A stretch of DNA of 64,000 bases from Cephalotus follicularis (lineage: Eukaryota > Streptophyta > Magnoliopsida > Oxalidales > Cephalotaceae), in NCBI GenBank assembly GCA_001972305.1, contig BDDD01000020.1:109573-173572 (forward strand), in the 5' to 3' direction. The translations under genes were made by a program, and so were the position numbers. The notes beneath the pieces were generated by a model that saw only the letters and a program-made list of their open reading frames with translations, did no database searches and had not been told where the DNA came from. Positions 472-60,696 of this stretch are shown piece after piece; within the stretch, counting starts at the first letter, position 1, and every line of letters begins with the position of its first letter.

Positions 472-1738
472 TGTTGGAAGTCTAGAGGGGGGGTGAATAG
501 ACTAATAAAAATTTATCTAGCAAATATACCACCAATAAAATTAATTACTCAAACACACAATGCGGAAAGTAAAGAGTGTAGGATTTAGAGATTCCAAACG
601 GATATATAGTGGTTCGGCAAACCGCCTACGTCCACTCCCCAAGGCCTCCCCTTGAGTATTCACTAGGTATGCCCCATTCCGGGCTTGGAACTCCAACCGA
701 GCTCCAACAACTTTCACTCCAACCAAGCGAATTACAACTTTGCTCCAACCGAGCAATACAAGAGACAACCTCTCTTGTATGTGTGAAAGTAGTAGTGTAA
801 GTGTTTACAAATTCGTAGCGAATTTGTTTACAATGAAGCACAATTTATACAAAGCTACAAGTGTGTATGTAATGTAAGAATAAAGCTTTATAAATGTAGG
901 TAATTGCTTTGGATTGATCTCTTTTGATTGTATGATTGCTTAGTATTGAACTTGGGATAGCTTGAGAGAATGTGTAACTTGAAAGCTTGATCACTTGTGC
1001 AAGAAGTCCAATTTTCCTCTTATAGTTGAGCCTCCAACGGATCTATTTTTAACTGTCTGATATAAATCCAGTCGGCTGGATTTGGACGGTAGCTGGCTGG
1101 ATTGATGGCGCGTTTATTTGAATATAGCCGTTGGGAGTGGGCAGTCGGCTGGATCCTGTAGGCAGTCGACTGGTATGCTCGGCAGTCGACTGATGCCCTG
1201 CTTCAGTCGGCTGTTGAGGCTAATTTAGAAGTTGTAGAACCTACTGCCAGATTTTGCACAATTGAAGGCAGTCGGCTGGAACCCTATGGCAGTCGACTGG
1301 ACCCCCTGGCAGTCGACTGGTCCCCTGCTTCAGTCGGCTGGATTGGGTGTGAAATGTTACAGGAGCTTCTGCCTGATTTGTACCCCATGGCAGTCGACTA
1401 ATGCCCTGTGACAGTCGACTGGAATTGCCTGGCAGTCGACTGGACCCCTGTGTCAGTCGACTGGTGTGCTGTTTCTGCAGATTCTTGGTTTAGGTTGAAG
1501 ATACAGTCGACTACATGACTTTGGAAGTCGACTCCTAGCCTTGGCAGTCGACTGAATTGGTCTCCAGTCAGCTGGAATTGCCTGTATCTGCATAAACATT
1601 CTTGGCACAACTTTGGACAAAGAATCAAGTGAGTAAATGCATTTATAACTTAAAGAATTATGCATACAAGTAAATTATGTTTGTTAATCATCAAAATAAC
1701 TCATGGTAAACATTTAATCGGGGTGGCAAAGGCCAACA
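472..1738 (-). repeat. copia 5' LTR (1267 bp)
   Basis: On the plus strand the LTR begins TGTTGG and ends CCAACA, a 6-bp terminal inverted repeat, and abuts the PBS. A TATA-like box (minus CTATAAGAGG) lies at about 1018-1025, placing U3 at higher coordinates and the R/U5 part at 472 to about 990. U3 carries the palindrome array described separately. No internal ORF looks real. Confidence 0.85.
1071..1573. promoter_or_regulatory. four quartets of CAGTCGACTG palindromes in U3
   Basis: Positions of the GTCGAC core (or one-base variants such as GTCGGC and GTCAGC): 1144, 1165, 1185, 1206; 1271, 1292, 1312, 1333; 1393, 1414, 1435, 1456; 1506, 1527, 1547, 1567. Spacing within each group is 20 or 21 bp and the group starts are 127, 122 and 113 bp apart. 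A single copy lies at 1071. The array is upstream of the TATA-like box on the minus strand, so a role as an array of binding sites for a dimeric regulator is plausible but inferred. Confidence 0.8.
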
Positions 1739-2221
1739 AATCTCATGCTCCTTAGCACGAACCCTGCATTATGCTTTAGGATAAATCCAAATGGTAACGA
1801 GATAATCTATCCTCCACTAAACCCGAGAGCAAGCATAATACGGTAAGTCTTTGCGGTTCATCTATTTCCCTAAGAAAGTGAACCTATGACTGGGAACATT
1901 CTGTCAGAAGGGAGTAAGGATCTCATTCTCATAACCTCTCACGCATGAGATCCAAGCCCTCGAACGACAGGGCACTATATGTGTACCCGGAGGACATGGT
2001 GATCACCTGATCCATTTATGATGGTTTGGAATATACATATAGCGGGTTGCCATTATTGATTGTATATGCACTATAAAACACAAAAGGAATTCATATTGTA
2101 TAAATAGATAGTGTAATATACATACATACAGCCGGCCCGTGGCTTAAAGAGATATCTCCAGTTAAGGAGTGCATCTCATACATACACATATATTTATGCA
2201 GAGCCATCTCGTGGCATGCAA
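1739..2221 (-). repeat. dispersed repeat R1, left copy
   Basis: Reverse-complemented, bases about 1745-2060 align by eye with 46300-46620, sharing blocks such as TGAGAGGTTATGAGAATGA and GTCATAGGTTCACT. No ORF with a recognisable domain is present. The copia element to the left inserted into or beside it; to the right it meets a gypsy integrase fragment. The class of the repeat is unknown; it could be an LTR or the noncoding body of a non-autonomous element. Confidence 0.6.
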
Positions 2222-3350
2222 GGACACCCCTACTCTAACAATGTCTTGAACCATCTCGGGACCTAACAACTTACGATCCCCAACTTCATCCCAACACAAC
2301 GGAGTCCTACAACTCCTACCATACAAAGCCTCATACGGTGCCATACCAAGGCTGGTTTGGTAGCTATTGTTGTAGTCGAATTCGATCATGGTCAGACGAG
2401 AATCCCAACTGTCCTTGAAATCCATCACACAGGCTCTCAAAATATCTTCGAGAATCTAGTTCATGCGCTCAGACTGCCCATCAGTATGAGGATGATATGC
2501 CGTTCTGAGTGACAACTCCCTACCCAGCGTTGCTTGCAAGCTCTGCCAAAATCTCAAACTGAACCTGGGATCTCTGTCCGAAACAATACTGCTGGGGACT
2601 CCATGCAACCTGATGATCTTGTCCACATACAACAACGTGAAACTTTTCCAAGCTATACACCATCCGTATTGGCAAGAAGTCATCCGACTTGGTTAGTCGA
2701 TCCACTATGACCCATATAGCATTGTGTTTCCTCCATGTCAGGGGAAAGCCTGAGATGAAATCCATAGAAATATGATCCCACTTCCATTCAGGGATAGGAA
2801 GGGACTGAAGAAGACCTAACAGCTTCTGTCTTTCTGCCTTTACCTGCTGGCAGGTTAGGCATCTTGGCACGAACCTAGCAATCACCCTCTTCATTCCACG
2901 CCACCAATACTGAAGCTTAAGGTCATGATACATCTTTGTACTCCCAGGATGCATCGACCATGCTGAATAATGCATTTCATCCAAAATCTCACCCTTGAGC
3001 TCTACCATATGCGGCACACATATCCTCGGCCTAAACATCAGCGCACCATCCTTTCGGATGTGGAAGTCAGACCGAGCTCCTTCTCGGACTTGCTTCCTGA
3101 GCTTGACCAATCTCCAATCCTTATCTTGGGGCTCATAAATCTGATCAATCAAAGCAGACCTCACACGAAGAGAAGCTACCAATACACTGTTGTCCTTGGC
3201 AGACAACTCTACACCCAGAGATCTTAACTGCTCCATCAACGGTAAATATATCGTCTGCACATGCGCAAGGGGAAGGTAAGACTTATCGCTCAATGCATCG
3301 GCTACCACGTTAGCCTTGCCTGGGTGATATCAATGGTGCAATCATAATCC
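2222..3350 (-). pseudogene. Ty3/gypsy RNase H-integrase fragment, broken
   Basis: On the minus strand this reads the end of RNase H ([13 protein letters not shown], near 3338-3300), then integrase: the zinc-binding region HPGSTKMYHDLK...CLTCQQVKAE, the core with SMDFISGFP and IVDRLTK, then [17 protein letters not shown] and APYEALYGR. These are chromovirus-type integrase motifs. A one-base loss breaks the frame just before HPGKA, another shift lies near 2640-2690, and an in-frame TAG interrupts the TDGQSER region. The C-terminal part after the LGPEMVQ motif is missing at about 2222. No LTR belongs to it here, so it is a truncated remnant. Confidence 0.85.
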
Positions 3351-3351
3351 A

Positions 3352-4434: not shown

Positions 4435-5766
4435 TGTCACACCCCGTTTATCGAGAAGACAACAAACGGAGCGTGCATCCCATACTAAAGCGGTAAAGGA
4501 AATTAACACATAAATGCAGCTCATGTAAAACCATAAAATTTAACTCATAAACAAGATGTCAGTTGCGGAAGCATAAAGATTTATAAGCTGTAAACTTGTA
4601 GCGTGCATCCCATACTACACGCTATCCAAAAAAAGTCTGTCATTGTTAATCGCCCACAAACGGAGCGTGATCATAGTACAATATTAAGTCCATCATTAAC
4701 ATCACCATAAGTACAGTACATCGGAAATCCTTTAACGAAACAGTTTATTACAATCAGGAGAACAAAAAAACTAAGAACAACATAACAACTTCGTTCTTCG
4801 TCCATGCCAGTCCAATCGGTCCACTGCATCAATCTGTAAAGTAGGGGGTTAGCCTTTGTCCTCACTCGGCTAAGTCATAAATGTAGCTCAGGATCAACAT
4901 TAGATGCATGTCATGTAATGTATGTATAAATGATGCAGTGCAGGAAATACCAGTTATGTATATATGAGAAATATATATATTTTTTAGCAGTACAGTAAAA
5001 TATCAGTGGGCACATAAGAAAATATATGTATGCAAGAACAATACAATAGTGATCCGGCCAGGATCACATCCACAGTCACAGTAATGTCCGAAAAGGACCA
5101 ACAGGCAGTACAGTATGTCCATAAGGACCACAACAGTCAGGCAGTATATGTAACGCCGCCAACTCCTGGCCCCATGCTACACTCCCACTCTGGTCCCTAC
5201 TCCAGGCAACCGAGCGAGGCAACAGTACAGTACAGTACAGTGAGTCACCCAGCCATACTCCTGGCCCCTAGGTCAACCCTACCACTAGCCGGTGCTGGCA
5301 GCCTCTGCCATGCAACCAGTGGCTCAAGCACAATCACATAGAATTTCACAGAGCAAAACAGTGTATCAAACAGTAAACAGTGCAGTATCAGTACAATGGT
5401 GATCATTTCGATCAACAACAGTCAGTTCATTTCAAAATGTTTTCCAAGGATTATAAACATTTGAAATATACATATTCAGTAGCAGAAATACTTTTAAACA
5501 GTTTCAGTAAGCGGAAATTGCTTTCCCAATATGTTCGAAAATATAATAACACTCATCTTATTTTTTCGTTTTCAACATAATAGTTCCAACTCATATAAGC
5601 ATTTCTAAAGTAACGATACATGGAAATCATAGTCAATCTATGGACAGTCAAGAACAGGCAGTAAGTAATGCATATGCAATGCATACAAATGCTCTAATGC
5701 ATCCAAAGCGAAACGGGATCGTCGGGCATCAAAACAGTAAAAACTGTCCAAACAGGACTTTAAGGC

Positions 5767-5955
5767 GTCGGCGTTTATTCCTCAGGCGTCGACGCTTATG
5801 TGCCTCAAGCGTCACCGTTTAGTCCATTAGCGTCAGCGCTTACAGTGTCTGGGCGTCGATACCACCTCCCTTAGACGTCGACGTTTAGCACAATTCAACA
5901 TATAAAATGCAGTTCACAGTATTAAGCATCGACGGTCATTACTTAGGCATCGACG
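5767..5955. promoter_or_regulatory. GCGTCGACGC palindrome cluster (mid-LTR)
   Basis: Core positions are 5767, 5788, 5811, 5832, 5855, 5877, then 5928 and 5949: spacing 21-23 bp. It is the mid-LTR cluster, about 1.1 kb from the LTR start on the minus strand. Confidence 0.7.
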
Positions 5956-6730
5956 GTTTCAAGCAGGGGCCGTCTTCTACCTCACGACATGGCTAAACAG
6001 TGACATTTCCATGCATACAACATGCATTCCAATAGGTATAAAGCACAGAAAACGGCCATGCAATATCATGTGACACACCTAGTACAAGGTAGAATCATTT
6101 TAGTGACTAACACGGATCATCAAACCATGAAATTCATGCATGAACATCACTGGACAAACACTAAGTATTGAACACAAAATACAATTATGGCTTCCCCTAC
6201 CTCAGGCCTCAATTTAGAAGCCGAAAGTCCACCTCTTTTAGTATCCAATCAGTCACTTGAGTCCCCAGGTACGGCTTGAAAGCTCCCTGGTTCGTCCTAG
6301 CAGTTGGTGTGCAAGCTCCAAGCTCCCCTTTAGTTCAACAATGGTGATGGAGCTTCCTCTCTCAATCTCTCCTGCTCTCTTGTCACTCATAGTGTCATTG
6401 ATCCTCTAGCTCTCTGTAATAGATGGGAGGGGTGAGAGGAGTAGTCTTTATGCAGAAAGCGTTTTCCTCTCTGCCAAAAACCCCACCAGTTTAGTCCCTC
6501 TCCCTCATGCACATCAGGTGCCACAGGTGTCCTTTTCTTCCCTTCCACAGGCCATGCACTGAGGGATTTTCCCTCTGCCCCTGCCCTGATGTTGCAGGTA
6601 GGTCTGGCAACAAAAGGCATGCATGCCACATTCTCAAAACGTCTGCTATGCTGCTTGATAAGTGGCAATAAATCACCTCCCTGCGACACGTCCATCTGCT
6701 ATTATGAATATGCAGAACACGCCGCAAAGC

Positions 6731-7814: not shown

Positions 7815-7978
7815 TGTAATGTCCCAAATGTCATTTTGATATATTATTGTAATCCTCATTTTAATTCCATAATGAATTAATGAGAATGATGGATTTTTCC
7901 AACTTGTCATATCGAATTTTGAGTAAAGAATGTTAAAGGATGTTGTGTTAATCGAAAATGTGGAAATTGGCTAAAAGT

Positions 7979-8072
7979 GCCGACGCTCAGAAGTAAAGCA
8001 TCGATGCCAAGAAGCAAAACATGCGTTAAGGCCCTTGCCTTAAAGCGCCGATGCCAAGAGGTAAGCATCGAC
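7979..8072. promoter_or_regulatory. GCGTCGACGC palindrome pairs (LTR start side)
   Basis: Cores at 7979/8000 and 8047/8067, spacing 20-21 bp, 165-260 bp from the LTR start and upstream of the TATA-like block. Confidence 0.62.
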
Positions 8073-8814
8073 GCTTAAAGACGACTACAGATGGACTTGA
8101 AACACTGACAACAAACGTGTGAAGGGCAGGTGAAGGCCACTATTGGGGTGCTTTACCATGCTAGTGGTAACGTGTTAGACATGTTACCATGTCTCCATGC
8201 CTGCAATGATAGACGTGTGTCATGCGGTAGGTGAGAAGCAAGATATAGGGGGTAGGTGGATGCCATCCATGTTCGGCAGGCAAGAAAGAGAAGTAGTGAG
8301 AAACGCACAACACCATAAAAATGCGCCTCTCTTTTTCTCCTTCGTCCAGCACCTAGAAAGAAAAGAAAAGAGAGGAAAAACCCAGGGAAATAGAGAGAAA
8401 CACAGAGAGAAACCAGAAATAGTGGGAAAGGAAGGGAGAAACATTTTCTCCATTTTTGGGCTTGACCAAAGCTTGGAAGCATGGAGCCACGGGACCAGAC
8501 TTGGAGCTATTGGGAAGCTCAACGCTACTGGTCGGTGAGCTTGAAGAGGTGGACTACAATTCCTAACTTGGAATCTAAGGTAGGGATTATATAAATGAAT
8601 TTTGAATTCAAATAAAGTGAATGATCATTGGTGAAATGCATGGATATTGTGGATTGTGGATTGAATGATTGATGTTATGGTTACTATGGATGGTTAACCT
8701 GCCATGCATGCTGTGTTCTGGAATGAATATGGTTTGAATTGCATGTGTTCATATGCTTGCATGCGAATGGTATTAGACGTGTTGAAGAAGACGATGCTCT
8801 GGTCTTCTTTAACC

Positions 8815-9260
8815 GTCGACGCTTAAAGGAAAATCATCGATGCCTTGGGTTGTTACACGAAAGAAGGACGCGACATGGTCATGGTTGTACTGGACCGTTG
8901 ACGCTTGTGAGAAAAGCGTCGACGCTTTTGACTATTATACGCTAGAAAAGTTGACGCTTAGAGGAAACATCGATGCTTTGGTTCATTGTGAATGGGAATG
9001 GACGCGTGAAGCGTTGACACTAAGGTTCCTACCTTAAAGCATGGACACTATGGGTAAAGCGCTGAGGCTCAAGGATCCTCACCTTGAAGCGTCGATGCTA
9101 AAGAGACAAGATATTGGCATATAAAGCTTCTGGTTCAAAGCGCTGACACCAAGAGTTAAAGGGTCGACGCTTAAGGGACATAAGCGTTGACGCTAAGGGT
9201 AAAACGACAACGCTTAAGTGACTGATATGAACGTTAACACTTAGACGGTACACGTTGATG
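8815..9260. promoter_or_regulatory. GCGTCGACGC palindrome cluster (mid-LTR), decayed
   Basis: Pairs at 8815/8836, 8897/8918 and 8950/8969 keep 19-21 bp spacing; further degenerate copies continue to about 9260. Many cores read GTTGAC or ATCGAT, as expected from loss of the central CpG. Confidence 0.65.
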
Positions 9261-9896: not shown

Positions 9897-11344
9897 AACG
9901 TATTGATATATGTTATGTAGTGCATCACCATGCATTTATTACATGACATTTATTATCGTTGACCGCCAAATGCCTTTATATCTTTCCCACATAGCTAGTG
10001 GATTCGGCTAACCCTATCAATTTTAGATTGATGCAGTGGGATCGATATGGACAAGCGTGGTATTACAGAAGAGAAGAATAAAGTTGTATTTTCTTCTAGA
10101 AATGTTTAAATGGATTAATGTATTGAATGATTAATTGTTCATGCTCCGTTGAGTGCAATTAACGATGGATTATTTGTATTATTGTAATACCCTATTCGTT
10201 CATAAATGTATTTTTACAGGTTCGTAAATATTTTACGAATTTTATATGTGTTTTCGGGCTTTTAATTTTGTTTAATTTTAAAAGTCCGGTTGCCCTATGA
10301 TCGGGTTTATGTGAATTGTGCAGAATGATACCGGTCCGAAATTCGGGTATGTTATGCTATGTTTGGGTTTGGGTTTTATTAATTCTTATTTTAATACAAA
10401 ACTTATTTTATTAAAAACAATTATTATTCTTTTAATTTTTATAATTCCAAATTCTTTTTATTATTAATTCATTTTATTATCAATTCATTTTATTTCCTTT
10501 TCCTATTTTATCCATTTCTCCCACTTCCTCCCACCTTCTTCCTACTTTCCAGCAAATCCCACTATCAATTCACATGCTAAATCCTTCCTTTTTCCATTTC
10601 AAATCCAGAAAAGTTCCTTTCTTCCTCCTTTTGTCTCCTCCATCCTCCATTATTAGAGTATCTTGCCATTTTATATGTTGCCCACATCTTTCTTTGCAAG
10701 CTACTGCAGATTCTAACTTGTTAGTGTGTAACAAACTGCTGTGTAATTCATTCTTCAAATTCCAGGAGGTAATCTCAACCCTTAATTAATTCTTTTGGAA
10801 ATTCTCTTAGTTTGCTGTGTATGTCTAAGTATGTCATGGTTTTGTGTTCTTCTTCCACTGTTTTTGTTCACAGCAGAATTGTGTGTAGTGTTTGTGTTCC
10901 TCCTACTGTTTTCTGGGTTCCTTAACATCACTACAGGTCAGTAAATTCGTCCCCTTTAATGATAATCTTGTTGTAATGGCTTACTTTGAGTTTTTATGCT
11001 CTTGGTGTCTTTGAGTCTTTGATTCTTGTCTAAACATGTTGCTATTGTGTTAGTAATGTTATCTGCACGTTTTATGCACCTATATATATCACAAACTGAG
11101 TTTACAACTTCTGTAATCAATTAGAAACAAAATCTGGACATGTTCATGAAATGTCTTCTTGCTTCCTTTTGCAAGTTAAATCTTTGACAAGTCGTTTCTT
11201 TGTCAAATTTGTGTTTGTAAATCACCTACAAGTCATATATAATCATATATTTATGTCCATATGTCTCTAGTTTAATGTAGAAATCATTTGAACCATTTTT
11301 AGTAGCAAATCGTCGGATTTCCAACTGTTCTGTTGCCCAGAACA

Positions 11345-11504
11345 GTCGGCTGTCTTTGTGGACAGTCGACTGGAATGGTTGTGTAGTCGACAGGAGGGAA
11401 GAACACAGTCGACTACCTGCATTTTTGGTTGCGTAGTCGACTATTAATATGGTCCAGTCGACTGCCAAGCCTCCCCAGTCGACTGGACCCCTGTTCTAGT
11501 CGAC
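11345..11504. promoter_or_regulatory. two quartets of CAGTCGACTG palindromes
   Basis: Cores at 11345, 11365, 11386, 11408 and at 11436, 11457, 11478, 11499. Spacing is 20-22 bp inside the quartets and 28 bp between them, so quartet starts are 91 bp apart. Confidence 0.8.
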
Positions 11505-11932
11505 TGTTATGCCCTGGAATGTGCTGTTTTCAACTGTTTTGATTCGTTTGATCCCCGAATCGATCCGAATCTTTTCCAAACACTGTTATGAGTTTGTTTA
11601 ATGCTTCTAATGTGTTTTAAACTCTTATACATATGATTTTGAATGTCTTTATAGATTGTGGAGTTTCAAGTGGATTCCGTTTAAAATTGTCTATTCGTAA
11701 GTACTTTGCAAGCGCATAAGGTACGGATTTTCTGTTCCTTGGCTATCTGACCTTCAAACTGAAACTGTTTTGATAAGCTACTTTGTTTATGAAATCAACG
11801 ATGTTTTATGATTTTGATACGTTTCGAATTTAAAGTTGGTTTGACATTTTAATTGATTCCGACTTTATCTATACATATGTTATGGTACGATATGTTAGGA
11901 TACGATATGTTATGATATGACATGTTATAATA

Positions 11933-12657: not shown

Positions 12658-13084
12658 TATAATATTGTATAGTATAGTATTGTATAGCATAGGATTGTAT
12701 AGCATGGTATTGTATACATATCTATTTCAGCCTTAGTTAATTTTACAGTTTGGTTGAAATTTAAGCTTTGCATAGTTTTAGTATTTTGTAGCAACTAAAG
12801 TATTTGTTTCTTCGAATAGTTTTGTCAAAGTCAAACTTCCAGTCTATCGGTTCCTTGTCTTTTAGGCATGGAATACGCGAACGTTTCATGAATGCTTATC
12901 TGTTAAAATTTGCCTTAGGTGAACTTTGAGGTGTTAGATATTTCTGTAAGTTTTAGTATACATATTCTCAAATTTTGTGTAATCTTCGTAATTTGTTTGA
13001 GTATTGTCACAAACCTTTTCTAAGCCTAGCTAAGCCCCTAGTTTGCTTAGTTTTGTCAACTTTTGTCGTGTAAGGTCCCGTATT

Positions 13085-13244
13085 GTCAGCTGATCTTGTC
13101 CCCAGGTCAGCTGACCCCTCCGAACCGTCAGCTGACCTGGTATAATTATCAGCTGATGCGTTGGTTTTTACGTCCATCAGCTGACACAAGAAGGGAGGAC
13201 AGCTGATGTGTTGGTAAGGTCAGCTGACAGGTGTTTCTGTCGGC
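13085..13244. promoter_or_regulatory. two quartets of GTCAGCTGAC palindromes
   Basis: Cores (GTCAGC or variants) at 13085, 13106, 13127, 13148 and 13176, 13198, 13219, 13239. Spacing is 20-22 bp with a 28-bp gap; quartet starts are 91 bp apart, exactly as in the CAGTCGACTG cluster of the same LTR although the palindrome differs. Confidence 0.8.
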
Positions 13245-13405
13245 TGACAAGACCCGTTGTCTTGTCAACCTTTAGGCTGCTAAACGATGATTTTTACCAA
13301 GTTTACTAAAGATGTAATTTGATCTCTGTATACCTGTATTTATATACTAATATATACTGAACATCCACTAAATGTTTGTGTTTAAACTGTTTCTTTGCTG
13401 AACAG

Positions 13406-13657
13406 TTGTTGTGAGCAGTTTTTGAATATGTTGTGTGAAAACATATTTATGTGAGTTAAGTTGATTTTGATAAATCAATTATTTTTTTTAAATTTAAATA
13501 CTGAGTATTGTACCCACCTATGGGGCGTATCCATAGGCACGTCGTGGGCCTGGCACGGGGACGTGACACTTCCGTAGCGGTGTGATTAGACTACGGCGTC
13601 TCTGAGTGTATGAACGAATCCCATGAGGTGGATTTGTGGATCCGCTATGTGATAGAG
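13406..13657 (+). repeat. 252-bp duplication, in-context copy
   Basis: This copy continues into the rest of the LTR, including the CCACCTATGGGG block shared with the related LTR at 33520, so it is likely the true locus. Confidence 0.85.
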
Positions 13658-21845: not shown

Positions 21846-21953
21846 TGTAATGACCAGAAATTTTGTTAAAGTTATTGTTTATGGAAATATGGTTGACATA
21901 AGTGTTGTATGGTGTGTGTGTGTGTATGTTTTGCTTCTTGTGGCATTGAAAGC

Positions 21954-22229
21954 ATCGACTGTCTAATTTAAAGCGTCAACGGTTAGTCTGTGTTATGGGA
22001 TGAATACCTCAAGCATCGACCAATCTCCACACACCAAACATTTTAGTTTAAGCGCTGACAGTTTGTTCAAAGGGACGACGCTTATGCGGTAAACTTCCGA
22101 CGCTTATTTCCTTCCCTTCGACGGTTTGAACCCCATTTCTTTGTTAAACATGTTCAACCGATGACGCTTAGTGGCAAGCGGCAGCGCTTTGAGGTTAAAG
22201 CGTCGACGCTTAATGCTTATCCTTCGACG
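21954..22229. promoter_or_regulatory. GCGTCGACGC-type palindrome quartets upstream of TATA
   Basis: Quartets at 22054, 22074, 22096, 22117 and 22160, 22180, 22202, 22223 (spacing 20-22 bp; starts 106 bp apart), preceded by 21954/21975 and 22015. The last core is about 260 bp upstream of the TATA box. Confidence 0.72.
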
Positions 22230-22485
22230 CTGTAAGTAAAAACCTTGGAAGGGCCAACACTTATCTCTTTTTTTGTCGTTTTGTGAATTAATGAAAATAA
22301 TTATTGATAGATATCAAGCAATGGATGGTAGAGTTACGATCTTTTACCTGACTATTATTATTTTAAGATAAAAAAAGACAAGTGTCGTTAATTTGGTGTA
22401 AGAGAAATTTATCACGTGGGCAGCATAAACGTGGGCAACGTCAATGCTGATGCACGATGAGTAAGGAAGTCTGCTTTAAGTCCCC

Positions 22486-23976: not shown

Positions 23977-24145
23977 TGTAATAACCGCAATTTCAATTAA
24001 TGTATATTGTACATGAGATGAATAAAATATGCATTATATTGAATTTTGAAATGTCTAATTACTGTATAAATTGGGGTTATTGGATTTGATCAGAAATGCA
24101 AATGTGGTAAAATACACTTAACAAACAAAAACCAGCCTCAAACAG

Positions 24146-24220
24146 CCGACTATCATAGGATAACACCCGACTATTTTGATTCAAGGAGTGACAGTCGACA
24201 GTCACAGGGCAACAGTCGAC
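24146..24220. promoter_or_regulatory. CAGTCGACTG palindromes (LTR start side)
   Basis: Cores at 24146, 24167, 24194 and 24215 (21, 27, 21 bp). The 3' LTR has the equivalent cluster at about 35730-35815. Confidence 0.68.
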
Positions 24221-25106: not shown

Positions 25107-25215
25107 GTTGACTATTTAAACTTAATAGTTAATTGCTCAATGTAAACAGTCGACTGTTAAGGATAAACAGTCGACTTCTAATCAAAACAGCCGGCTACTC
25201 TTATGAACAGCCGAC
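25107..25215. promoter_or_regulatory. CAGTCGACTG palindromes (mid-LTR), six in phase
   Basis: Cores at 25107, 25128, 25149, 25170, 25190 and 25210: 21, 21, 21, 20 and 20 bp apart. The 3' LTR equivalent is about 36715-36815. Confidence 0.75.
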
Positions 25216-35554: not shown

Positions 35555-38024
35555 TGTAATAACCGCAATTTCAATTAATGTATATTGTACACGTGATGAA
35601 TAAAATATGCATTATATTGAATTTTGAAATGTCTAATTACTATATAAATTGGGGTTATTAAATTGTTGAATATGATCGGAAACGCAAATGTGGTAAAATA
35701 CACTTAACAAACCAAAACCAGCCTCAAAGAGCTGACTGTCACATGGAAACAGCCGACTGTCTTGATTCAAGGGGTGACAGTCGATTGTCACAGGGCAATA
35801 GTCGACTGGTCTGGCATAGATAGGTGTCCGTGCATGGCGTGTAAAACAGAGCAGTGGCAGCCAAAACGTGTCTTGCTTGATAGATGCGTGCCACTAGGTG
35901 TGCAACATGCAAGAGTGGTGTCTTGCATGTTCTCTATTCCTTCTGCAGACTTGCAACCTACAAAACAGAAGAGAAAAGAGTGAGAAGAGGTACATGTGAG
36001 AGAGAGAAGAGAAAAGAGGGAACCTTTGGTTATGACTAGAACTGGTCACTGGAACCACGAGTTCTATATATCAGTGATGCATGAGTGTTTAGAGAGTTAG
36101 AAACACTGAGAAAGAGCGACATCTTACTGGTGATTCTGGACCTTGCGTGTTGGAGCTTGCATGTTGAAGGTTGAGTTCAAAGAGTTTTTGAAGCTTTGAT
36201 CCCCTGCTAAGTCACCAATCTGAGTTCCTTACTGATATTGAGATCGTAGTAATGTAACATGCTAATGTTAGATACATATAACCACTGTTAAACATGACTC
36301 AAGATTTATAAACCCAGAATTAGAAAGGAAATCAAGTTGGTTAAAATGTGGAACTAGAGTAAGAAATTTCAATAAGCTACTGTTGGAGTTATAGTTGTTA
36401 TCATGACTAGATAACTAGATGAACTTACTGGGTTGATATCTAAACCTGTAAACGTGCAATTGTATAGATTAACTTGCTGAAATTGGAAAGTTTGTGTGGA
36501 GTTGGGACTTGGAACTCAAAGAGACAAATCAACTCAATTGATTTCGGGATAGCATTTGAGGTAGGGGTTTTGACATGTTTTAGAAGATATGATATGTGTA
36601 GCATGTCTGGATAAATTCTCTGTGATTGTATGTTATTATTTTGGTTGAAATTGGATTTTGACATGCATCCTCTGTTTTCATGAAACTGCTGCCTGACATT
36701 TCTGGATAAAAACAGTCAATTGTTTAAACCTAACATTCGACTACTCAATGTAAACAATCGACTGCCTAATGAAAACAACCGGCTATTCTTATGAACAGCC
36801 GACTGTTAAGTGACAAATTACTGATATTATCTGCTGTTGGGCTAAAATTGTGTGTAATTACCTTGGCCTCCACATGGGATGATTGTAACAGTCAATCCTG
36901 GCCTGATGTAGTTACATTAGAGAAAGTAAACAACTTATGCATACATTGTGAGAGTTGTGCAAAAATGACCAGGGTATACTAACATCTTGTTTGAACCCTT
37001 GAATTGTGATTGTTCCGCTACTGTTTAATGATGCTGTTATACATAATGTATAGCTATTAAGTGTTCATAAATACTATTGTTACACTTAATATCAATGATT
37101 GAACCAACTAGTGCTATAAGCACAAAAATGGATTTTCTTCTTATTGTTTTCAAAATGAAACTTATTGTCCAAGGATTTACTTATTTTCCTCCTTTGAGAG
37201 GCACAACTATTGTACTGAATACCGTTTCCTCCAATGAGAGGTATGGTTACTGAACTGTTAAATGTTTCAAAACAAAACAACTTTTATATTGCATATTATA
37301 GATATATGAAATATTTCTATTGAATTGATTGTCTATGTTATTGCCGTTAGTCGAGCGATAGGAGACATCACTGGCTACGGGGTGGTCCTATGTGCCAGGA
37401 GTTGGCTAGAGCTTCCACCACACTTATCTGCAATGCAGAGCCTGATTGTTACCTGATCTATCATCTTCGGAGTGTAGGGTGATAGTTAGGTGGTGCACAG
37501 TTGGTGCTAGGAGTTAGCGACATGTGACACCCAAACGACTGTATTGATTGATTTTACCCTTGTGCGGTATTCTTGAATTGTATTGTCTATGGCCACTTTG
37601 CATGATTGCTCATATATATTGAAATACTTATTTACATATGATATTTCAAAATAAATTGTCATACATGTTTACATTTATATATTCTTTCTCATGCTTTTTC
37701 CTACTTAGCCAAGTGAGGACAACGGCTAACCCCCTACAATTTCAGATTAAGTGAAGGCATCGGGGAAGTGCTGCTGAAGCTTTATTGGAGAGATTCTATT
37801 TGTTAAGGTTGTTTTCTATGTTAATTGTATTGAAATGAACGATCATACTCCGTTGTTGGTATTGTCTAAGCACGTAGTATGGGCTGCGTGTGGATAATTT
37901 ATGTATAATCTGGCAATGAAATGCTTCCGCTTATGTTATGATTGTTGATTAATGTTGAATGCTGGATTATTATTATATCTGATTTCACCATATATGTTGT
38001 CTTAATGGAAAACGGGGTGTGACT
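35555..38024 (+). repeat. Tekay-like 3' LTR (2470 bp)
   Basis: It starts TGTAATAACCGC and ends GGGGTGTGACT, the last base apparently mutated from A, followed by the GAGGT target copy. Palindrome clusters lie at about 35730-35815 and 36715-36815, and the TTAGCC/GGCTAA hairpin at 37704-37730, about 310 bp from the end. It supplies the segment missing from the 5' LTR. Confidence 0.92.
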
Positions 38025-43267: not shown

Positions 43268-44280
43268 TGTCACACCCCGTTTCTATAACAACACTTAGAT
43301 CATGACAATTAATATAATATTCACCTTATATGAAAATACGGGAAATCTAAAGCTTTCCAAACCATACAGAATATCATTGCAGAAGCATTTAACATAAGCC
43401 GAAACAAGAACGTAACATGCACCCCATACTACATGTTACCAAAACATAACACACTACCGTCATTATTAACTGCCCTCAAACGGAGCGTGAACAAATAGTT
43501 ATCAATACATAATCTCTCAATACAGCAATCCAATAAAACATTATTCAGAAGAAATACAACTTCTTCTTCACTTCACTCGCCCTATGCTCACAGATGTCGA
43601 TCCGCTGCATCAATTTGAAATTGATAGGGTTAGCCGAATCCACTGGCTAAGTAGAGAAGATTTAATTACATTTGGGGTCAATGATAATGAATGTCATGTA
43701 ATGAATGCATTCGTGATGCAATACGTAGTATATCACAATACATATATATGTACACGTGCCAATAGGTAAGCAACCATGCCAAGTGGCTACAGCCATTCAA
43801 TCCATCAATCATGTCTCAAAGGACCAATCCGATCAATCCAGTCAATCCACTGCTACTTGCACGAAGGCCAAGTAACCAGGGTGTATGGGTGTCCCTAGCC
43901 ATCTCTTGGCCCCTAGGCAAAAAATCCCACCCCTATCCCTTAAGGACAACTCCGTCACGTGGCTAGCGCGGCATCAATCCAATCACAAACATCAATCAAT
44001 CCAAAGTCAATCCATTTCTCAAGTAGTTTATAAGTTATAAATTACTTGAAACAGTACATTTTTAAATGTATAACAATCCTTTGAAATAACTTTCAATCCT
44101 TCAAAAATATACATTGTTACAATATACATTTTCGTGTAAAATAATGATTTATTACAAAATCATGTATGCACTTCTAAAATGGTAAAACACTTTAGAAATC
44201 ATTCAGATTTAAATCCACAATTGAATCCACAACAGTTATGCAAGCAATATATGCTCAAATGCAAAACAGACCCTTTTGGC

Positions 44281-44637
44281 GTCAACGTGTATCCTTTAGG
44301 CATCGACGCGTATATCAGCCCTCTTAGGCGTCAACGTGTAACTTATGCATCAACGCACATGGAAATCCCTCTGGGAGTTAACACGCAACCTAGGCGTTAA
44401 CGTGTACAACAGACCATTAAGGGTCGGTGTTTCGATCCTTTGCGTCGACGCTCTAAGGTAGGAACCTTAGGCGTCAACGTCTACCTCCTTTTTGGCATCG
44501 ACACTATAAGGTAGGAACCTTAAGCGCCAATGCCTTATCCCTAGGCGTCAACATCACCTCATGGCGTCGATGCTTAAAGCATCTTCTTCTCTGCATATCG
44601 GGCCAAGGTGTCAATGTCTTTTCCTCAAGGCGTCGAC
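44281..44637. promoter_or_regulatory. GCGTCGACGC palindromes, alternating 20 and 28 bp
   Basis: Cores at 44281, 44302, 44330, 44349, 44377, 44396, 44423, 44444, 44473, 44497, 44526, 44547, 44566, 44610, 44632. Up to 44547 the spacing alternates 19-24 and 27-29 bp, a dimer of about 48 bp. Many cores read GTCAAC, ATCAAC or GTTAAC instead of GTCGAC. Confidence 0.75.
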
Positions 44638-45316
44638 GTCTATCGAACCAGAACAATATCACAATGCACCAGTGTATCAAACCAGCAGAAATCATGCATA
44701 CACCACATGCAAACCAATCCATTTTCACTCCAAGTCACACCATGCATACCGGTTATGGCAAACCTCAACATGCATAGTAGCAATCCGACACTCATGCATT
44801 TCACCAAATGAGTGTCCACTATATTTGAACTCAAATTGGAAGTATATAGTCCCTACCTTAGATTCCAAGTTAGGAATCGAAGTCCACCTCTTTAAGTCCC
44901 GCCGACCAGTACCTTCGTGCTCCCAGGTCCGGCACAGCAGCTCCAAGTTCGAGCTTCCAACTCCCAAGCCTCCAAGATTTTTCACGAATTCAACAATGGA
45001 TGAAATGTGGTTCCTCTCTTTTTCGTTCCTCTCATGTTTTCTCTCTGTCTTTCTCTCTATTCTTCCTCTTCCTGGTGTTGGTCGAAGAAGGAGAAAGAGA
45101 GCGTTTTATGGAGGAGTTTCTCTTTCTCCTCTTACCCACTTTCTTGGCGTCAAGTGCCTCTCTCTCTCTTTCTCTCTACCATTGCAGGCATGCCATTGTC
45201 CTTTCTTTCCTTTCTCTTAGCCATTTCAACAGATGGGGAATAGATAAAGTGTCTTACACTTCTCTTTCACGTGCCTTCTACCAGTTTTTTGTCTTACTCT
45301 ACCGAAAGTCTTTGGC

Positions 45317-45600
45317 GTCAACGTCTATGATGCGCGTTGACGCATTGACTCTCTCCCTTGGAACTAACAGGTTCTGCGAACCGCGTTAATGCCTGCTTCT
45401 TTAATTCCCATCGATGGGCGTCGATGTCACCACTTGGCGTAGACATCTCAAGGCAAGGAGCCTTAAACGCGCCCTTCGTTCCTTGGTGTCGACGATACTT
45501 CATGGCATCAATGCTACTTCATGGCGTCGACGCTTTAAAGCCTGAAGCCTTAAGCGTAGTGTTCGTTCCTTGGCGTTGACGCCATCCCTTAACGTCGACA
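45317..45600. promoter_or_regulatory. GCGTCGACGC palindrome cluster (LTR start side)
   Basis: Cores include 45317 and 45336 (19 bp) and further copies around 45419-45600. The cluster is 160-450 bp from the LTR start on the minus strand, upstream of a TATA-like CCATAAAACGC block near 45110. Confidence 0.6.
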
Positions 45601-45766
45601 CTCCATGCCCTTTTTCTTGCATTTCCATTCCATACAACATTCTTAACATTCTCAACTCAAAATTCAAAACCACAAGTTGGAAAAATCCATCATTCTCATT
45701 AATTCATGAAAATTTACATTGAGAATTATAACAATACATTAATAGACGTCTGGTCATTACAAAAGT

Positions 45767-49388: not shown

Positions 49389-50675
49389 TGAAATATAACA
49401 CTCTTGCAATATACAAGAGGGGGGTGAATTGAATATTGAAGTAAATATTGGAAATTTAAAAACTTTAAATGTAAAGAGTCAAGGAAAGAAAAAACTTCTC
49501 AGAATTTAGAGTGGTTAGGCTAACTCTTGCCTACGTCCACTTTTCACAAGGGAGCTCCTTGAGTTTCCACTATCTCGATTTGATTAAGGCAGCAAATCGT
49601 TACACCTCACAATTTCGTGATTGACCTCAATCACAAGACCTTGACCTCAAAGCCTTAGAGGATTCTCCTCTTTTACAAGTAATGATAAAAGTGTTTACAA
49701 GATGACCTCTCACATAGGTAGGTATGAAAAATACAGCTCTCAATATGAAACACTCAGATAATCTCAAAGAATAAAGCTTAGAAGCTTTGTAGAGCAGTAT
49801 AGAGCACTTTGAGCTTTTTACACAAGTATGCTTGGATTTGATATTTCTCTTGATGTTGTGTGATTGATGTGAATAATTCTGAATTGTTGTTTTTTTTTCT
49901 TCTGAGGTTTCAGTCTTCCTTTTATAGTCATAAGAGATTTGTAGCTGTTGCATAGATCATGGAAGCTTTTGATTTAATAATGTGTAGTTGCAATCTTTGA
50001 ATTTGTCTTCTGTTGACATAAAGACGTCGATGTCATTCAAAAGGCGTCGATGTCTTTATGGTTGATAGCCGTTGGAAGTGCTCGTACTAGTCGTTCCATG
50101 TTTCCCGGGTCTTGTTCATTTAAAAAGACGTCGATGTCTTTTTAAAGGCGTCGATGTCATTTCTGAGAAATCTCCAGGATTTGAATCTTTGAACATCACA
50201 TCGACTTCTTCTGTGGGAGTCGATGTATTTTCTGGGAAATGCAAGTAGCTCTAGAAAGGCATCGATGTCTATGGAAAGGCGTCAATGTCTTTCGTACAGA
50301 CGCCGATGTCTTTACTGATAAGCATCGATGTCTTCACTCGAAATTGTCCTGTAACTTTGGCACCTAAAGACGTCGATGTCTTTCTGATAGGGATCAACTT
50401 CTTTCGTATGGACGTCGATGTCTTTACTGATAAGCATCGATGTCATCACTCAAAATTGTCCTGTAACTTCTGGCATGAAAGGTGTCGATGTCTTGTTTAA
50501 AGGAGTCGATGTCTTTCTGTACGGACGTCGATGTTATTCCTTGAAAGTCGATGTCTTCTTCTGCAGATGGTATTTTTGCTTTGGTATTGAACTTGTAATT
50601 TCTTGCACATCAAGTAAACTTGTTAAATGCAAATATGTTATCATCAAAACTAAGATTGAGACTAAATCGTCAACA
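49389..50675 (-). repeat. copia 3' LTR (1287 bp)
   Basis: Plus strand TGAAATATAAC to CGTCAACA. Nearly identical to 58951-60218 except for one extra 20-bp palindrome unit, one T and scattered substitutions. A TATA box (minus CTATAAAAGG) is at 49919-49926; the palindromes are upstream of it. Confidence 0.95.
50026..50553. promoter_or_regulatory. GACGTCGATGTC palindromes: three pairs and three quartets
   Basis: Pairs: 50026/50046, 50130/50150, 50200/50219. Quartets: 50261, 50281, 50302, 50324; 50372, 50393, 50414, 50436; 50484, 50505, 50527, 50547. Spacing is 19-22 bp; quartet starts are 111 and 112 bp apart. The array begins about 100 bp upstream of the TATA box and fills most of U3. Confidence 0.85.
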
Positions 50676-51604: not shown

Positions 51605-52477
51605 TGCAGTTTCTTCATGTGCTTCTCAAGGAGGATTGTCTTCTTGCTCTTCCCTTGCAATCCTTTGCACTTGATCAATTTTGGGGCAATAAGTCCATAT
51701 TCCTTCTTGCTTCTTCCACCCCATCCGATTCAAAGTACTCTTGTTGTACGTGTCTTCTTTCTTCAATTTGGTTGCTATCTCTCCTTCTAGCTTTGATTTG
51801 AATGCTTTGAGTGTGATTTTCTTGAATGATGTTTGTATGCTTGATTTGCTTGTGTTGTTCTCTGTTCTGCACTTTAAAACATTCGTCCATTTATAGCTTC
51901 TTGCCTCATAGATCCGTTGGGATTAGTTTAGGATTAATTCCTTAATGGAATGTCCACTGAAAACTGTCAGAAATTACTGCAGACGATCAAAGCGTCGACG
52001 GACTCCTCTAAAGCGTCGACGGTCATGTGACCTTTGGGGCTCCCAAATTTGAATTCTCTGCTTCAAGCGTAGACGTTGCATTGCTGATGTCGACCGCCAG
52101 ATAAAGCGCGGACTCTTAGGCTTGAGCGTCGACGCTTAGGCACATTTTAATTGCCATTTCTTCTCTACCTAAGACGGCAGACGCTTTGCACTAAGCGCAT
52201 GCGTTTTGCGCCTCAAAGCGCGGACGCTTGATTTTGAGCGTCGACGTTTTGAGCTTTATCCCCAATTCTCCAAGTGCTTCACCGGTAGACGCTTTGTTCT
52301 TATCTCGGCCGTCTGGTAAAGCGCAGACGCTTTAATTGCAAGCGTCGGCGGTCTGGGCAGTTTTCTGCATAATTCTTTCTGATTTGTTTATCTTTTATCT
52401 TTCTTGCACATAAAGAAACTTTGTCAAATACAAATATGTTATCATCAAAACATAGGATTGAGACATAAATGTCAACA
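51605..52477 (-). repeat. LTR of the copia derivative, complete (873 bp)
   Basis: Plus strand TGCAGTTTC to TGTCAACA. A TATA box (minus CTATAAATGG) is at about 51886-51894, and the palindrome array 51994-52349 is upstream of it. Confidence 0.8.
51994..52349. promoter_or_regulatory. AGCGTCGACGCT palindromes, pair plus quartets
   Basis: Cores 51994/52015; then 52069, 52089, 52108, 52128; 52177, 52197, 52220, 52240; and 52285, 52308, 52323, 52344. Quartet starts are 108 bp apart. Many half-sites are degenerate (GCGGAC, GCAGAC). The second LTR holds the same array at 53914-54249. Confidence 0.75.
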
Positions 52478-54489: not shown

Positions 54490-54695
54490 TTTTACAAATA
54501 GTTGGTGTGAAAAAGAGTCAAACACAAAGAGTGATAAAAACAGACGTATTGGACACGACGAAAACTATTTTTGAAGATGGAGAAGGAATCAGAGGATGTT
54601 TTACGACCTAATAGAACGATTTTTGACGAAAAACAGAGAGGGTAGAAAATTTTCAAAATCTCAGAAATAGGGTAGAAGTGATAAATGAACATAAG

Positions 54696-54977
54696 ATCGA
54701 CGTTTTTATGAAGAAGTCGATTTCCGAGTAAAAGACGTCGACGTGATTAAAAAGAAGTCGACGCGTTCTTTAAATGAACGGAAGAAATCGATACAGAAAA
54801 TGGTGCGTTTTGAAAAGCATCGACGCGTTCGAAAAGAAGTCGACGTGTTTCAGTAAAACACAAAGGGATCGACGTTTTTCAAAAAGGATCGAGGTGATTT
54901 TCATAAGTCATAAATTTTCCAGAAAGGAAGTCGACTTGTTTTTATAAGACATAGAATTTCCAGACAAGAAGTCGACG
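54696..54977. promoter_or_regulatory. palindrome array outside an LTR, upstream of the extra ORF
   Basis: Cores at 54696, 54716, 54737, 54757 (20, 21, 20 bp), then 54787, 54819/54839, 54868/54888, 54930 and 54971. Units read AAGAAGTCGACGTGTTTT and variants. It lies between the pol stop (55088) and the extra ORF start (54489), 207 bp upstream on the minus strand, the same relation that the LTR arrays have to their TATA boxes. A dedicated promoter for the extra ORF is an inference. Confidence 0.7.
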
Positions 54978-55087
54978 TTTTTGTAAAACAGAACAGAAAA
55001 TCAAGCCAATAAACAGAACACAAACCAAGAAACAATCATCTCATCAATTTAACATTCAATTAAACAATCATTCAAACATAATAAACA

Positions 55088-58881: not shown

Positions 58882-58936
58882 ATTCAATTCTATAAGGATC
58901 TTTGTAATCTCTAACAATTAAGAAATAAGATTAACC

Positions 58937-58948
58937 GCTCTGATACCA
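58937..58948 (-). other. primer binding site, tRNA-iMet
   Basis: Minus strand TGGTATCAGAGC, two bases inside the 5' LTR edge. Confidence 0.93.
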
Positions 58949-58950
58949 AT

Positions 58951-60218
58951 TGAAATATAACACTCTTGCAATATACAAGAGGGGGGTGAATTGAATATTG
59001 AAGTAAATATTGGAAATTTAAAAACTTTAAATGTAAAGAGTCAAGGAAAGAAAAAACTTCTCTGAATTTAGAGTGGTTTGGCTAACTCTTGCCTATGTCC
59101 ACTTTTCTCAAGGGAGCTCCTTGAGTTTCCACTATCTCGATTTGATTAAGGCAGCAAATCGTTACACCTCACAATTTCGTGATTGACCTCAATCACAAGA
59201 CCTTGACCTCAAAGCCTTAGAGGATTCTCCTCTTTTACAAGTAATGATAAAAGTGTTTACAAGATGACCTCTCAAATAGGTAGGTATGAAAAATACAGCT
59301 CTCAATATGAAACACTCAGATAATCTCAAAGAATAAAGCTTAGAAGCTTTGTAGAGCAGTATAGAGCACTTTGAGCTTTTTACACAAGTATGCTTGGATT
59401 TGATATTTCTCTTCATGTTGTGTGATTGATGTGAATAATTCTGAATTGTTGTATTTTTTTTTCTTCTGAGGTTTCAGTCTTCCTTTTGTAGCCATAAGAG
59501 ATTTGTAGTCGTTGCATAGATCATGGAAGCTTTTGATTTAATAATGTGTAGTTGCAATCTTTGAATTTGTCTTCTGCTGACATAAAGACGTCGATGTCAT
59601 TCAAAAGGCGTCGATGTCTTTATAGTTGATAGCCGTTGGAAGTGCTCGTATTAGCCGTTCCATGTTTCCCGGGTCTTGTTCATTTAAAAAGGCGTCGATG
59701 TCATTTATGGGAAATCTCCAGGTTTGAATCTTTGAACATCACATCGACTTCTTCTGTGGGAGTTGATGTCTTTTCTGGGAAATGCAGGTAGCTCTAGAAA
59801 GGCGTCGATGTCTATGGAAAGGCGTCGATGTCTTTCGTACGGACGTCGATGTCTTTACTGATAAGCATCGATGTCTTCACTTGAAATTGTCCTGTAACTT
59901 TGGCACCTAAAGACGTCGATGTCTTTCTGATAGGGATCGACTTCTTTCGTATGGGCGTCGATGTCTTTACTTATAAGCATCGATGTCATCACTCGAAATT
60001 GTCCTGTAACTTCTGGCATGAAAGGCGGCGATGTCTTCTTTAAAGGAGTCGATGTCTTTCTGTACGGACGTCGATGTTATTCCTTGAAAGTCGATGTCTT
60101 CTTCTGCAGATGGTATTTTTGCTTTGGTATTGAACTTGTAATTTCTTGCACATCAAGTAAACTTGTTAAATGCAAATATGTTATCATCAAAACTAAGATT
60201 GAGACTAAATCGTCAACA
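58951..60218 (-). repeat. copia 5' LTR (1268 bp)
   Basis: It pairs with 49389-50675. It lacks one 20-bp palindrome unit (compare 59685-59710 with 50121-50160) and has one more base in the T tract near 59455, accounting for the 19-bp length difference. The array otherwise follows the 3' LTR. Confidence 0.95.
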
Positions 60219-60444
60219 ATTGCATTGAGTGTATTGAATGAATTGGGGTTTTTAGGGTTTTTAGCAAAACCTTGACCTAATTATTAATAGAAAGATTGAA
60301 ATGTTAATTTAAAGGTTGTAACTAGTTTTACTAACCTTAAAGATTGGTTTTAACCCTTTATTTCTTAAAGAATGGGTTTTGATTGGATTTTGGCTTGAAA
60401 ATTGTTTGTTTTCTGTAAAAAAATCGGCCATTCCCAGCAAATAC

Positions 60445-60696
60445 ATCGATGTCTTTCAAAGACATCGACGTCTTTTTCTTGAGATGCCTTTCCCCAGAGA
60501 AGGCATCGACGCGAGACATCGATGCGTATTCCCAGGCCATTTTTATTGAAATTCGTCGACGTCTTTGTCCAAGGACCTCGATGTCTACGGCCAAATTTAG
60601 AAGGACATCGATGTCTTTCAAAGACATCGACGTCCTTCTACCGTTTTTAAAGGCATGCCCTGATACGCATTGATATGTTTGGCCTAGGACATCGAC
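60445..60696. promoter_or_regulatory. GACATCGATGTC palindrome pairs in the gypsy LTR
   Basis: Pairs at 60445/60464, 60505/60518, 60555/60577, 60607/60626 and 60669/60691. The first and fourth read ACATCGATGTCTTTCAAAGA with the reverse next to it, giving long inverted repeats. The motif is the one used by the copia LTRs nested in this LTR, although the elements belong to different superfamilies. Confidence 0.78.

Follow-up and report, generated by a model that had tools for sequence, protein, structure and literature searches.

The long terminal repeats (LTRs) of both Sirevirus (copia) and gypsy retrotransposons in a 64,000-nucleotide stretch of the Cephalotus follicularis genome (contig BDDD01000020.1, positions 109,573 to 173,572; hereafter the window) carry arrays of short palindromic sites about 21 bp apart, and these phased arrays are real and genome-wide. 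All array sites have the core RTCGAY in common, with flanks that vary by family. Judging from the sequence patterns, the arrays are probably cis-regulatory and made up of cooperative sites for a dimeric host protein, with array units that have partly moved between the two superfamilies. The arrays of the window are collected in Table 1.

Table 1. Arrays of palindromic sites in the window and the assembly artefact (window coordinates)
Feature	Coordinates	Strand	Context and composition
Array A	1142..1575	-	5' LTR of Sirevirus (copia) element, LTR ~472-1736; four quartets, CAGTCGACTG-type
Array H	5765..5957	-	gypsy-type LTR ~4436-7064; six-site run then two; more pairs 6729-6829
Array G, first	7977..8074	+	gypsy 3' LTR G (7815-10182 and 14378-14564, split by B); GCGTCGACGC-type
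Array G, second region	8813..9213	+	LTR G
Array B	11343..11506	+	solo LTR of gypsy type, 10183-14372, with ATTAT target-site duplication; two groups of 4 CAGTCGACTG-type sites, 28 bp apart
Assembly artefact	12658..13407	.	reversed uncomplemented copy of 11184-11933; creates false GTCAGCTGAC palindromes
Array K (weaker sites)	21952..22230	+	gypsy-type LTR from 21846; upstream of CTATAAATA box at 22485
Array D1, 5' LTR	24143..24222	+	gypsy D (LTRs 23977-26271, 35555-37819); pair, 28 bp, pair
Array D2, 5' LTR	25147..25217	+	gypsy D; four sites, spacings 21,20,20
Array D1, 3' LTR	35728..35808	+	gypsy D; pair, 28 bp, pair
Array D2, 3' LTR	36713..36805	+	gypsy D; decayed
Array, second G-type LTR (43267-45762)	44279..44640	-	
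Second array, G-type LTR 43267-45762	45315..45601	-	near LTR 5' end
Array E, 3' LTR copy	50023..50555	-	Sirevirus E (LTRs 49389-50677, 58951-60220); ACGTCGATGT-type pairs and quartets
Array F	51992..52352	-	partial Sirevirus LTR ~51605-52477; GCGTCGACGC-type pairs; second copy ~53915-54250
Array J	54693..54979	-	linker of E (between pol and 3' LTR); quartet 54698-54759 and more sites
Array E, 5' LTR copy	59587..60098	-	Sirevirus E
Array I	60443..60699	+	gypsy 5' LTR 48890-49388 and 60226-62231 (split by E); ACATCGATGT-type, mainly pairs

An initial annotation had noted dyads about 21 bp apart in copia and gypsy LTRs and proposed that their distances be compared with those in randomised sequence; the regular spacing holds against shuffles in the window, and against jittered positions both there and in a 200-kb replication. 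A scan for quartets that assumes no motif (score of at least 16) recovered 4 clusters in the window, whereas 100 dinucleotide shuffles gave 0.06 on average and never more than 1. Of the four, three are real (~1146–1571, 11347–11501 and 25151–25212), and the fourth belongs to a reversed segment (750 bp, 99.7%) that is an assembly error. Its GTCAGCTGAC array at 13090–13242 is the array at 11348–11502 spelled backwards without complementing, and GTCAGCTGAC was rejected as an independent palindrome. With this artefact masked, the window holds 134 RTCGAY sites, which form 41 pairs at 19–23 bp and 3 at 10–18 bp, as against a mean of 8.1 and a maximum of 19 pairs at 19–23 bp in 1000 jitters. The replication sample of the same genome, 20 pieces of 10 kb chosen by place, gave 66 pairs at 19–23 bp (jitter mean 12.3, maximum 25), 5 at 10–18 bp and 1 at 24–27 bp. 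When the 64 palindromic hexamers were compared in this sample, GTCGAC had 19 pairs at 19–23 bp versus 2 at 8–18 bp; among the best 14 of the 64, ATATAT and TATATA had 19 and 17 pairs at 19–23 bp but far more at 8–18 bp, and the next, TTTAAA, had 4 at 19–23 bp. Tolerantly matched sites have nearest gaps of 19–23 bp in 223 cases (mean 20.7, sd 0.86) versus 10 at 10–18 bp, the corresponding figures being 3 and 10 in a backward-read control. Genome-wide, 38,284 pairs of CAGTCGACTG have a gap of 5–15 bp versus 34 with 0–8 bp, although the copies are related, so that neither these genome counts nor the shuffle tests count independent events. Among the matches listed (contig C1 only), the pairs with the wider gap are all 29–32 nt long.

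The sites stand mostly in twos and fours, at times in sixes. The recurrent grouping by four claimed initially applies to 32 of 87 tolerant runs, which are not independent of one another; 36 have two sites, and the others have three (10), five (4), six (4) or eight (1). Four as a universal number was accordingly rejected, with run lengths varying from 2 to 8. In 8 gypsy D-type copies the first array has 2+2 sites, 27–28 bp apart, and the second has six sites in five copies, five in one and four in two. In array A the spacings (plus-strand order) are 21,20,21 / 21,20,21 / 21,21,21 / 21,20,20, with groups separated by 65, 60 and 50 bp and an extra site at 1073. The claim that every site faces the same side of the DNA is upheld inside a group but not across the longer gaps, where helical phasing was rejected for want of a clear phase (R 0.24–0.30 at all five periods tried).

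Elements of both superfamilies can be recognized by their coding and terminal features. Element A has a copia gag fragment at 1–359 (tblastn; its pol lies beyond the window) and the Sirevirus junction CA-ATTGG-TATCAGAGC at 458–473, and element E has copia Retrotran_gag_2 and RVT_2; the CA/ATTGG and TATCAGAGC junction, a Sirevirus feature of the 5' LTR end as defined in PMC2829016, is present in A and E, and this end is missing in F. A terminal polypurine tract followed by AT/TG is found at 50677 in E and 52479 in F, with more tracts at 50920, 52631, 52716 and 52771 (the comparison covers E and F, the 3' end of A being beyond the window). Allowing up to 3 mismatches, A has 17 sites and the two LTRs of E have 17 and 16. 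Among the gypsy elements, D has gag, RVT_1, RNase H and integrase between its LTRs, the LTR of array I is accompanied by gypsy gag at 62332–62925, a B-like LTR lies downstream of gypsy pol at locus L022, and an H-like LTR lies beside gypsy gag and RT at locus L007. Chromoviruses of the Tekay/Del type typically have LTR ends of the form TGTAAtaCCC...GGGTGTtACA; in a comparison covering B, G, G2 and I, the ends come near this. A search for a chromodomain after the integrase gave a Chromo profile match at L022:1373–2287 of 19 bits, below the cut-off of 25.1, and none in the L010 pieces or the window ORF 30970–31365.

The palindromes were initially held to differ between LTR types. Their flanks are family-specific, but CAGTCGACTG, GCGTCGACGC and ACRTCGAYGT all contain RTCGAY and are thus less different than had been held, and GTCAGCTGAC is false. 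Perfect symmetry is not required: the 200-kb sample has 114 RTCGAY sites on the lattice, of which 21 are perfect 10-bp palindromes, and several LTRs preserve their two half-sites unequally. The dyad symmetry nevertheless extends about 9 bp to each side: it is 0.45–0.76 at offsets 4–9 in 181 lattice sites versus 0.16–0.36 in 101 isolated sites. Conservation of the half-sites exceeds that of the 5+5 flanking bases in all 10 tabulated LTRs (0.81/0.97 versus 0.35 in array A, for example, but barely so in the left half of G, 0.53 versus 0.50), an outcome favoured by the choice of sites through consensus match. RYCGAC is also the DRE core of the AP2/ERF (CBF/DREB) factors, and the sites could be read as stress boxes of this kind, their palindromy a by-product of the GTCGAC core on both strands. 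The variants GCCGAC, GTCGAC and ATCGAC do recur among the sites, and Sirevirus repeats are reported to match mainly stress factors (PMC2829016); a monomer site, however, leaves the 9-bp-per-side symmetry and the fixed two-turn spacing unexplained, and we regard this reading as very improbable.

The near-absence of closer spacings, the conservation of sites over flanks and the symmetry of about 9 bp on each side make an array of binding sites the best-supported reading, consistent with the dimeric or tetrameric binding proposed at the outset. In this model, a host-encoded DNA-binding protein would bind each dyad of about 10–18 bp as a dimer and would cooperate with a neighbour bound to the following dyad, two helical turns further along; such cooperation would fill a pair or quartet as one assembly on one face of the DNA, and the binding may activate transcription. 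Half-sites of at least two types, CAGTC and RCRTC, suggest two or more related proteins.

The initial annotation had also considered a structure selected in RNA. Neighbouring palindromes could form hairpins or cruciforms that act in packaging or dimerisation or as small-RNA templates; the last role has been proposed for maize Sireviruses, in which small RNAs are drawn to the palindrome clusters (PMC10760457, citing Bousios 2016). Compared with dinucleotide shuffles, the array RNA of A and E indeed folds better (z -3.43 and -3.47; 0 of 100 as good in each). Yet the pairing-restoring double variant CAGCCGGCTG was observed beside a consensus site 578 times, whereas free combination of the two single variants (11,649 and 17,941; unvaried 38,284, over a wider gap range) would predict about 5,460; the copies counted are related. 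Likewise, 0 of 191 CAG-type sites in the window have the double variant (TA 105, CA 39, TG 35, others 12), a count that dropped sites with at least 3 mismatches, among them one double variant, CAGCCGGCTA. RNA pairing moreover neither requires a centre distance of 21 bp nor excludes 10–18 bp. Base-paired structure is therefore disfavoured by the scarcity of the double variant, and we consider it unlikely.

The same flank types occur in Sirevirus copia and gypsy LTRs, and some spacers are identical or near-identical in the arrays of both, inverted sense included. A common 31-mer, CAGYCGRCTGTCACAGGGCAWYAGTCGACTG, is found at 1117/1146 places, and of its first 12 loci, 4 are LTRs of Sirevirus A and the other 8 are of the gypsy D type. 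At 8 or more matches, A and D share 9 spacer pairs in sense versus 0.89 in shuffles, and 13 in inverted sense versus 0.77. B-type and A-type spacers are not clearly above shuffles at this threshold (p 0.41 sense, 0.12 inverted); at 9 or more matches p is 1.0 in sense and 0.04 inverted. These shared spacers support the spread of arrays between elements, which had been raised as an alternative. They are also expected if the arrays are passengers only, of single origin and spread by template switching or gene conversion, with tandem duplication and recent ancestry giving regularity without constraint; duplication of whole groups is evident as 127-bp and 111-bp units, the latter in the 3' LTR array of E. 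Against pure passage, spacers have diverged more than sites (the sites being consensus-chosen) and the 19–23 bp spacing is kept across families with different flanks; passive decay should have broadened it, and just those 34 close pairs were counted in the genome. Passage without function thus appears to have little probability. In the protein-binding model, the array unit of two sites and a spacer would have partly moved between superfamilies and then multiplied in tandem. More tentatively, it is possible, if doubtful, that dyad pairs two turns apart form an interchangeable regulatory cassette common to both superfamilies, with one host protein per dyad type and palindromes that aid template switching in either orientation.

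Palindromes in Sirevirus LTRs are already known; the gypsy arrays, the two-turn phasing and the sharing appear to be new, going by the open-licence literature. Element-specific palindromic repeated motifs (RMs) were described from the LTRs and linkers of 13 Sireviruses, present in 8 to 32 copies that sit mainly in the upper LTR half before the TATA box (Bousios et al. 2010, PMC2829016). In the present window, A, E and F directly fit that description, and array J parallels the linker copies. While 12 of the 13 RMs have a CGG-CCG signature (Tnd-1 is the exception) and the core here is RTCGAY, the Vitis RM CGGTCGACCG and the tobacco Tnd-1 RM ACAATCGATTGT have a TCGA core in common with the present sites. 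RMs are there called Sirevirus-specific relative to classic copia elements, whereas here gypsy D and eight D-type loci also carry arrays; the RM text of PMC2829016 gives no inter-site spacing, which is 19–23 bp here. The maize Copia palindrome CACCGGACNNNGTCCGGTG, discussed as secondary structure, small-RNA source and cis-regulation, is likewise clustered in Sirevirus LTRs and found in another superfamily, but its sequence is different and that superfamily is Helitron rather than gypsy (PMC10760457). The initial statement that no published description was known hence fails for the copia half, going by PMC2829016; no description of gypsy arrays, of two-turn phasing or of copia–gypsy sharing was found in the open-licence literature, where the matches listed for CAGTCGACTG had no retrotransposon context in the title or abstract start. 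That sites with the same phasing number in the tens of thousands would point to a strong, undescribed protein–DNA interaction, predicted to be one on which two unrelated retrotransposon superfamilies depend. As array DNA is a ready-made bait, it could serve to isolate the binder directly, which would open to testing the question, left from 2010, of what reads these palindromes in Sireviruses. Should array units indeed pass from copia to gypsy elements or back, regulatory sequence would be able to cross between superfamilies with otherwise unrelated LTRs.

Upstream promoter elements do not account for every array. A search for TATA-like boxes, using a short pattern that also matches by chance, found none ahead of or between the arrays of E5, G2 and H; in D, array D2 follows the box, the boxes found in B and I precede the array, and G has one box between its two arrays. 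The array comes before the box in A, E3, F and K, as does array 1 in D; the box lies at LTR coordinates 888 in A, 752 in E3 and 583 in F.

Scanning the window for dyad quartets at 20-22 bp without any motif, we recovered three real places, in the Sirevirus (copia) piece A and the gypsy LTRs B and D, where shuffled sequence averages 0.06 such clusters in all; a motif-based reading of the window added the arrays of E, J (in the linker of E), F, G, H and I, and a weaker one in K. RTCGAY or its decayed forms are common to the array sites. In the masked window, the 134 occurrences of RTCGAY form 41 pairs at 19-23 bp versus 3 at 10-18 bp, and jittering the positions, with shifts no larger than 40 bp, leaves 8.1 pairs on average in the former range. 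The quartet scan thus upholds the proposal of the initial annotation that arrays with a period of about 21 bp occur in both copia and gypsy LTRs beyond shuffled expectation, and the pair spacing of RTCGAY was replicated.

For this, 200,000 bases of the same genome were sampled by place (20 stretches, 11,173 N). The sample holds 263 RTCGAY, with 5 pairs at 10-18 bp, 66 at 19-23, 1 at 24-27, 11 at 28-32, 3 at 33-39, 30 at 40-44, 23 at 45-60 and 21 at 61-65, and its 29 lattice clusters are spread over 15 of the 20 stretches. Genome-wide pattern counts of repeats are lower bounds, and all counts come from one genome and are inflated by the relatedness of copies: CAGTCGACTG pairs number at least 34 with a gap of 0-8, at least 38,284 with 5-15 and at least 42,853 with 14-40, the centre distances of the last clustering at about 27-28, 40-43 and 48-50 among the matches listed, on contig C1. 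Pairs of a second type, CATCGACG with a gap of 6-30, occur at least 19,972 and 20,069 times on the two strands, versus 79 and 93 in a backwards control, in which each pattern is read reversed without complementing.

The window consists of nested LTR retrotransposons, and a chromodomain match in the gypsy elements was weak, scoring below the cut-off.

Features of the window (G000:C20:109573-173572; assembly size 1.58 Gb); gypsy-type LTRs are classed by termini and neighbours
Feature	Position	Strand	Basis or content
Element E, Sirevirus	49389-60220	-	copia gag and pol, Sirevirus primer-site junction, polypurine tracts
A, Sirevirus piece			junction and gag fragment
F, Sirevirus piece			polypurine tract
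Element D, gypsy	23977-37819	+	2.3-kb LTRs; internal gypsy-type gag, protease, RVT_1, RNase H, integrase
B, gypsy-type LTR			B-like LTR elsewhere (locus L022) adjoins gypsy genes
G, gypsy-type LTR			preceded by stretch homologous to end of internal region of D
H, gypsy-type LTR			H-like LTR elsewhere (locus L007) adjoins gypsy genes
I, gypsy-type LTR			gypsy gag downstream, at 62332
K, gypsy-type LTR			gypsy-type by its start alone
ORF in F linker	53235-53909	-	224 aa; PF20167 (plant transposon protein) 35.6 bits, under cut-off 45
ORF with RVT_1	37985-39523	-	512 aa; 28% identity to gypsy reverse transcriptase of D
~165-bp tandem repeat	14630-15236; 41795-42729
496-bp stretch, two copies	15238-15732; 41282-41777		89% identical; adjoin ~165-bp tandem repeats
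111-bp tandem units, both LTRs of E	50255-50558; 59798-60101		up to four sites per unit
Reversed, uncomplemented segment	12658-13407		750 bp, 99.7% match to 11184-11933; right of 473-N gap
Exact direct repeat, 252 bp	11933-12184; 13406-13657		flanks gap and reversed segment

The palindromes had been described as different, which is true of their flanks but not of the sites as unrelated words, the core being shared. Type CAGTC unites copia A with gypsy B and D, ACRTC copia E with gypsy I, and GCGTC copia F with gypsy G, H and K; the latter two types intergrade in the sample. A and D have in common, in the same LTR sense, the spacer TCACAGGGCA(T/A) that separates two sites, and over the 31 bp that include it A matches the 3' LTR of D at 93.5% and the 5' LTR at 90.3%. 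This shared 31-mer occurs at no fewer than 1117 and 1146 places on the two strands of the genome; the first 12, cut out as loci, comprise 4 that match A and 8 that match D. Further, the copia spacer TTTTGGTTGAG of locus L015 is the reverse complement of the D spacer in L020, a match that would require orientation-changing template switching or repair; the unit with TTTTGGTTGAG is found at least 308 and 286 times on the two strands, the element class being known for L015 and L020. Spread of the array between elements, initially raised as an alternative, is supported by the A-D spacers, which are shared beyond letter shuffles in both orientations, but gains little from A and B, with only a weak excess. 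Since the spacer set is small, hand-picked and includes related, possibly constrained spacers, we consider transfer of array units between copia and gypsy no more than likely on these sequence comparisons.

Grouping by four stood in part: among 87 tolerant runs from the window and sample (related copies; chance of a weak site in a random slot, 0.066), 32 have four sites, but pairs are commoner (36), and runs of three (10), five (4), six (4) and eight (1) occur. Three of the 12 31-mer loci, the Sirevirus A-type L025, L029 and L036, carry four quartets separated by about 65, 60 and 49 bp, and at a distance of 52-74 bp from the quartets there are one or two more sites; a fourth A-type copy, L035, reads 3+3+4+4 plus one further site. 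In the eight gypsy D-type copies the first array has 2+2 sites (spacings 21, 27-28, 21), and the second, about 1.0-1.2 kb on, has six sites in five copies, five in one and four in two. Whole groups multiply by tandem duplication: the 111-bp units in both LTRs of E each hold one group. The array comes before a TATA-like box in A, D (first array), the 3' LTR of E, F and K, and after one in B and I; in G a box lies between two arrays, and none was found before or between arrays in the 5' LTR of E, the second G-type LTR or H.

In each of the ten LTRs tabulated, conservation is higher in the half-sites than in the 5+5 bases beside them, though the sites were picked by consensus match. The 181 lattice sites have a dyad symmetry of 0.45-0.76 at offsets 4-9, which falls to 0.21-0.29 at 10-12; for 101 isolated sites the value at offsets 4-9 is 0.16-0.36. 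One-arm variants of CAGTCGACTG beside a consensus site number at least 11,649 (CAGCCGACTG) and 17,941 (CAGTCGGCTG), and the two-arm, symmetry-restoring variant at least 578 versus about 5,460 predicted by free combination, in a comparison of related copies with a gap of 5-15 for the unvaried count and 9-12 for the variants. This rarity speaks against selected base pairing as the explanation of the arrays. Shuffled RNA folds less well than array RNA, as expected of repeated self-complementary words, and a selected structure stays a less likely alternative. The variant counts instead fit a dimer that would tolerate one weak half-site.

Palindromic repeats, element-specific in 13 Sireviruses, are termed Sirevirus-specific against 30 classic copia elements in the sections of PMC2829016 considered here, which give no inter-site spacing, and the corresponding parts of PMC10760457 describe a maize palindrome common to Copia and Helitrons, with a small-RNA idea. 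Hence the copia arrays are known in kind, contrary to the initial view that no description had been published; no description of gypsy arrays or two-turn phasing was found in the open-licence papers searched, and as far as that literature goes the gypsy arrays appear to be new, as do the two-turn rule and the sharing.

The GTCAGCTGAC array, initially listed among the differing palindromes, was rejected as genuine: it arises from the reversed, uncomplemented segment. Other such self-matches in the window reach only 34-35 bp, at two places, and no complement-only self-match was found there. The 252-bp direct repeat probably belongs to the same gap-closing error. In seven genome pattern searches with more than 500 forward places each, the backwards control returned 0.28-0.54% of the true count on both strands, except for one strand of the two-arm variant search (5 of 538, 0.93%); two smaller searches gave 1 versus 34, and 0 versus 308 and 286. 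Given these control matches, there are probably many reversed, uncomplemented segments throughout the assembly.
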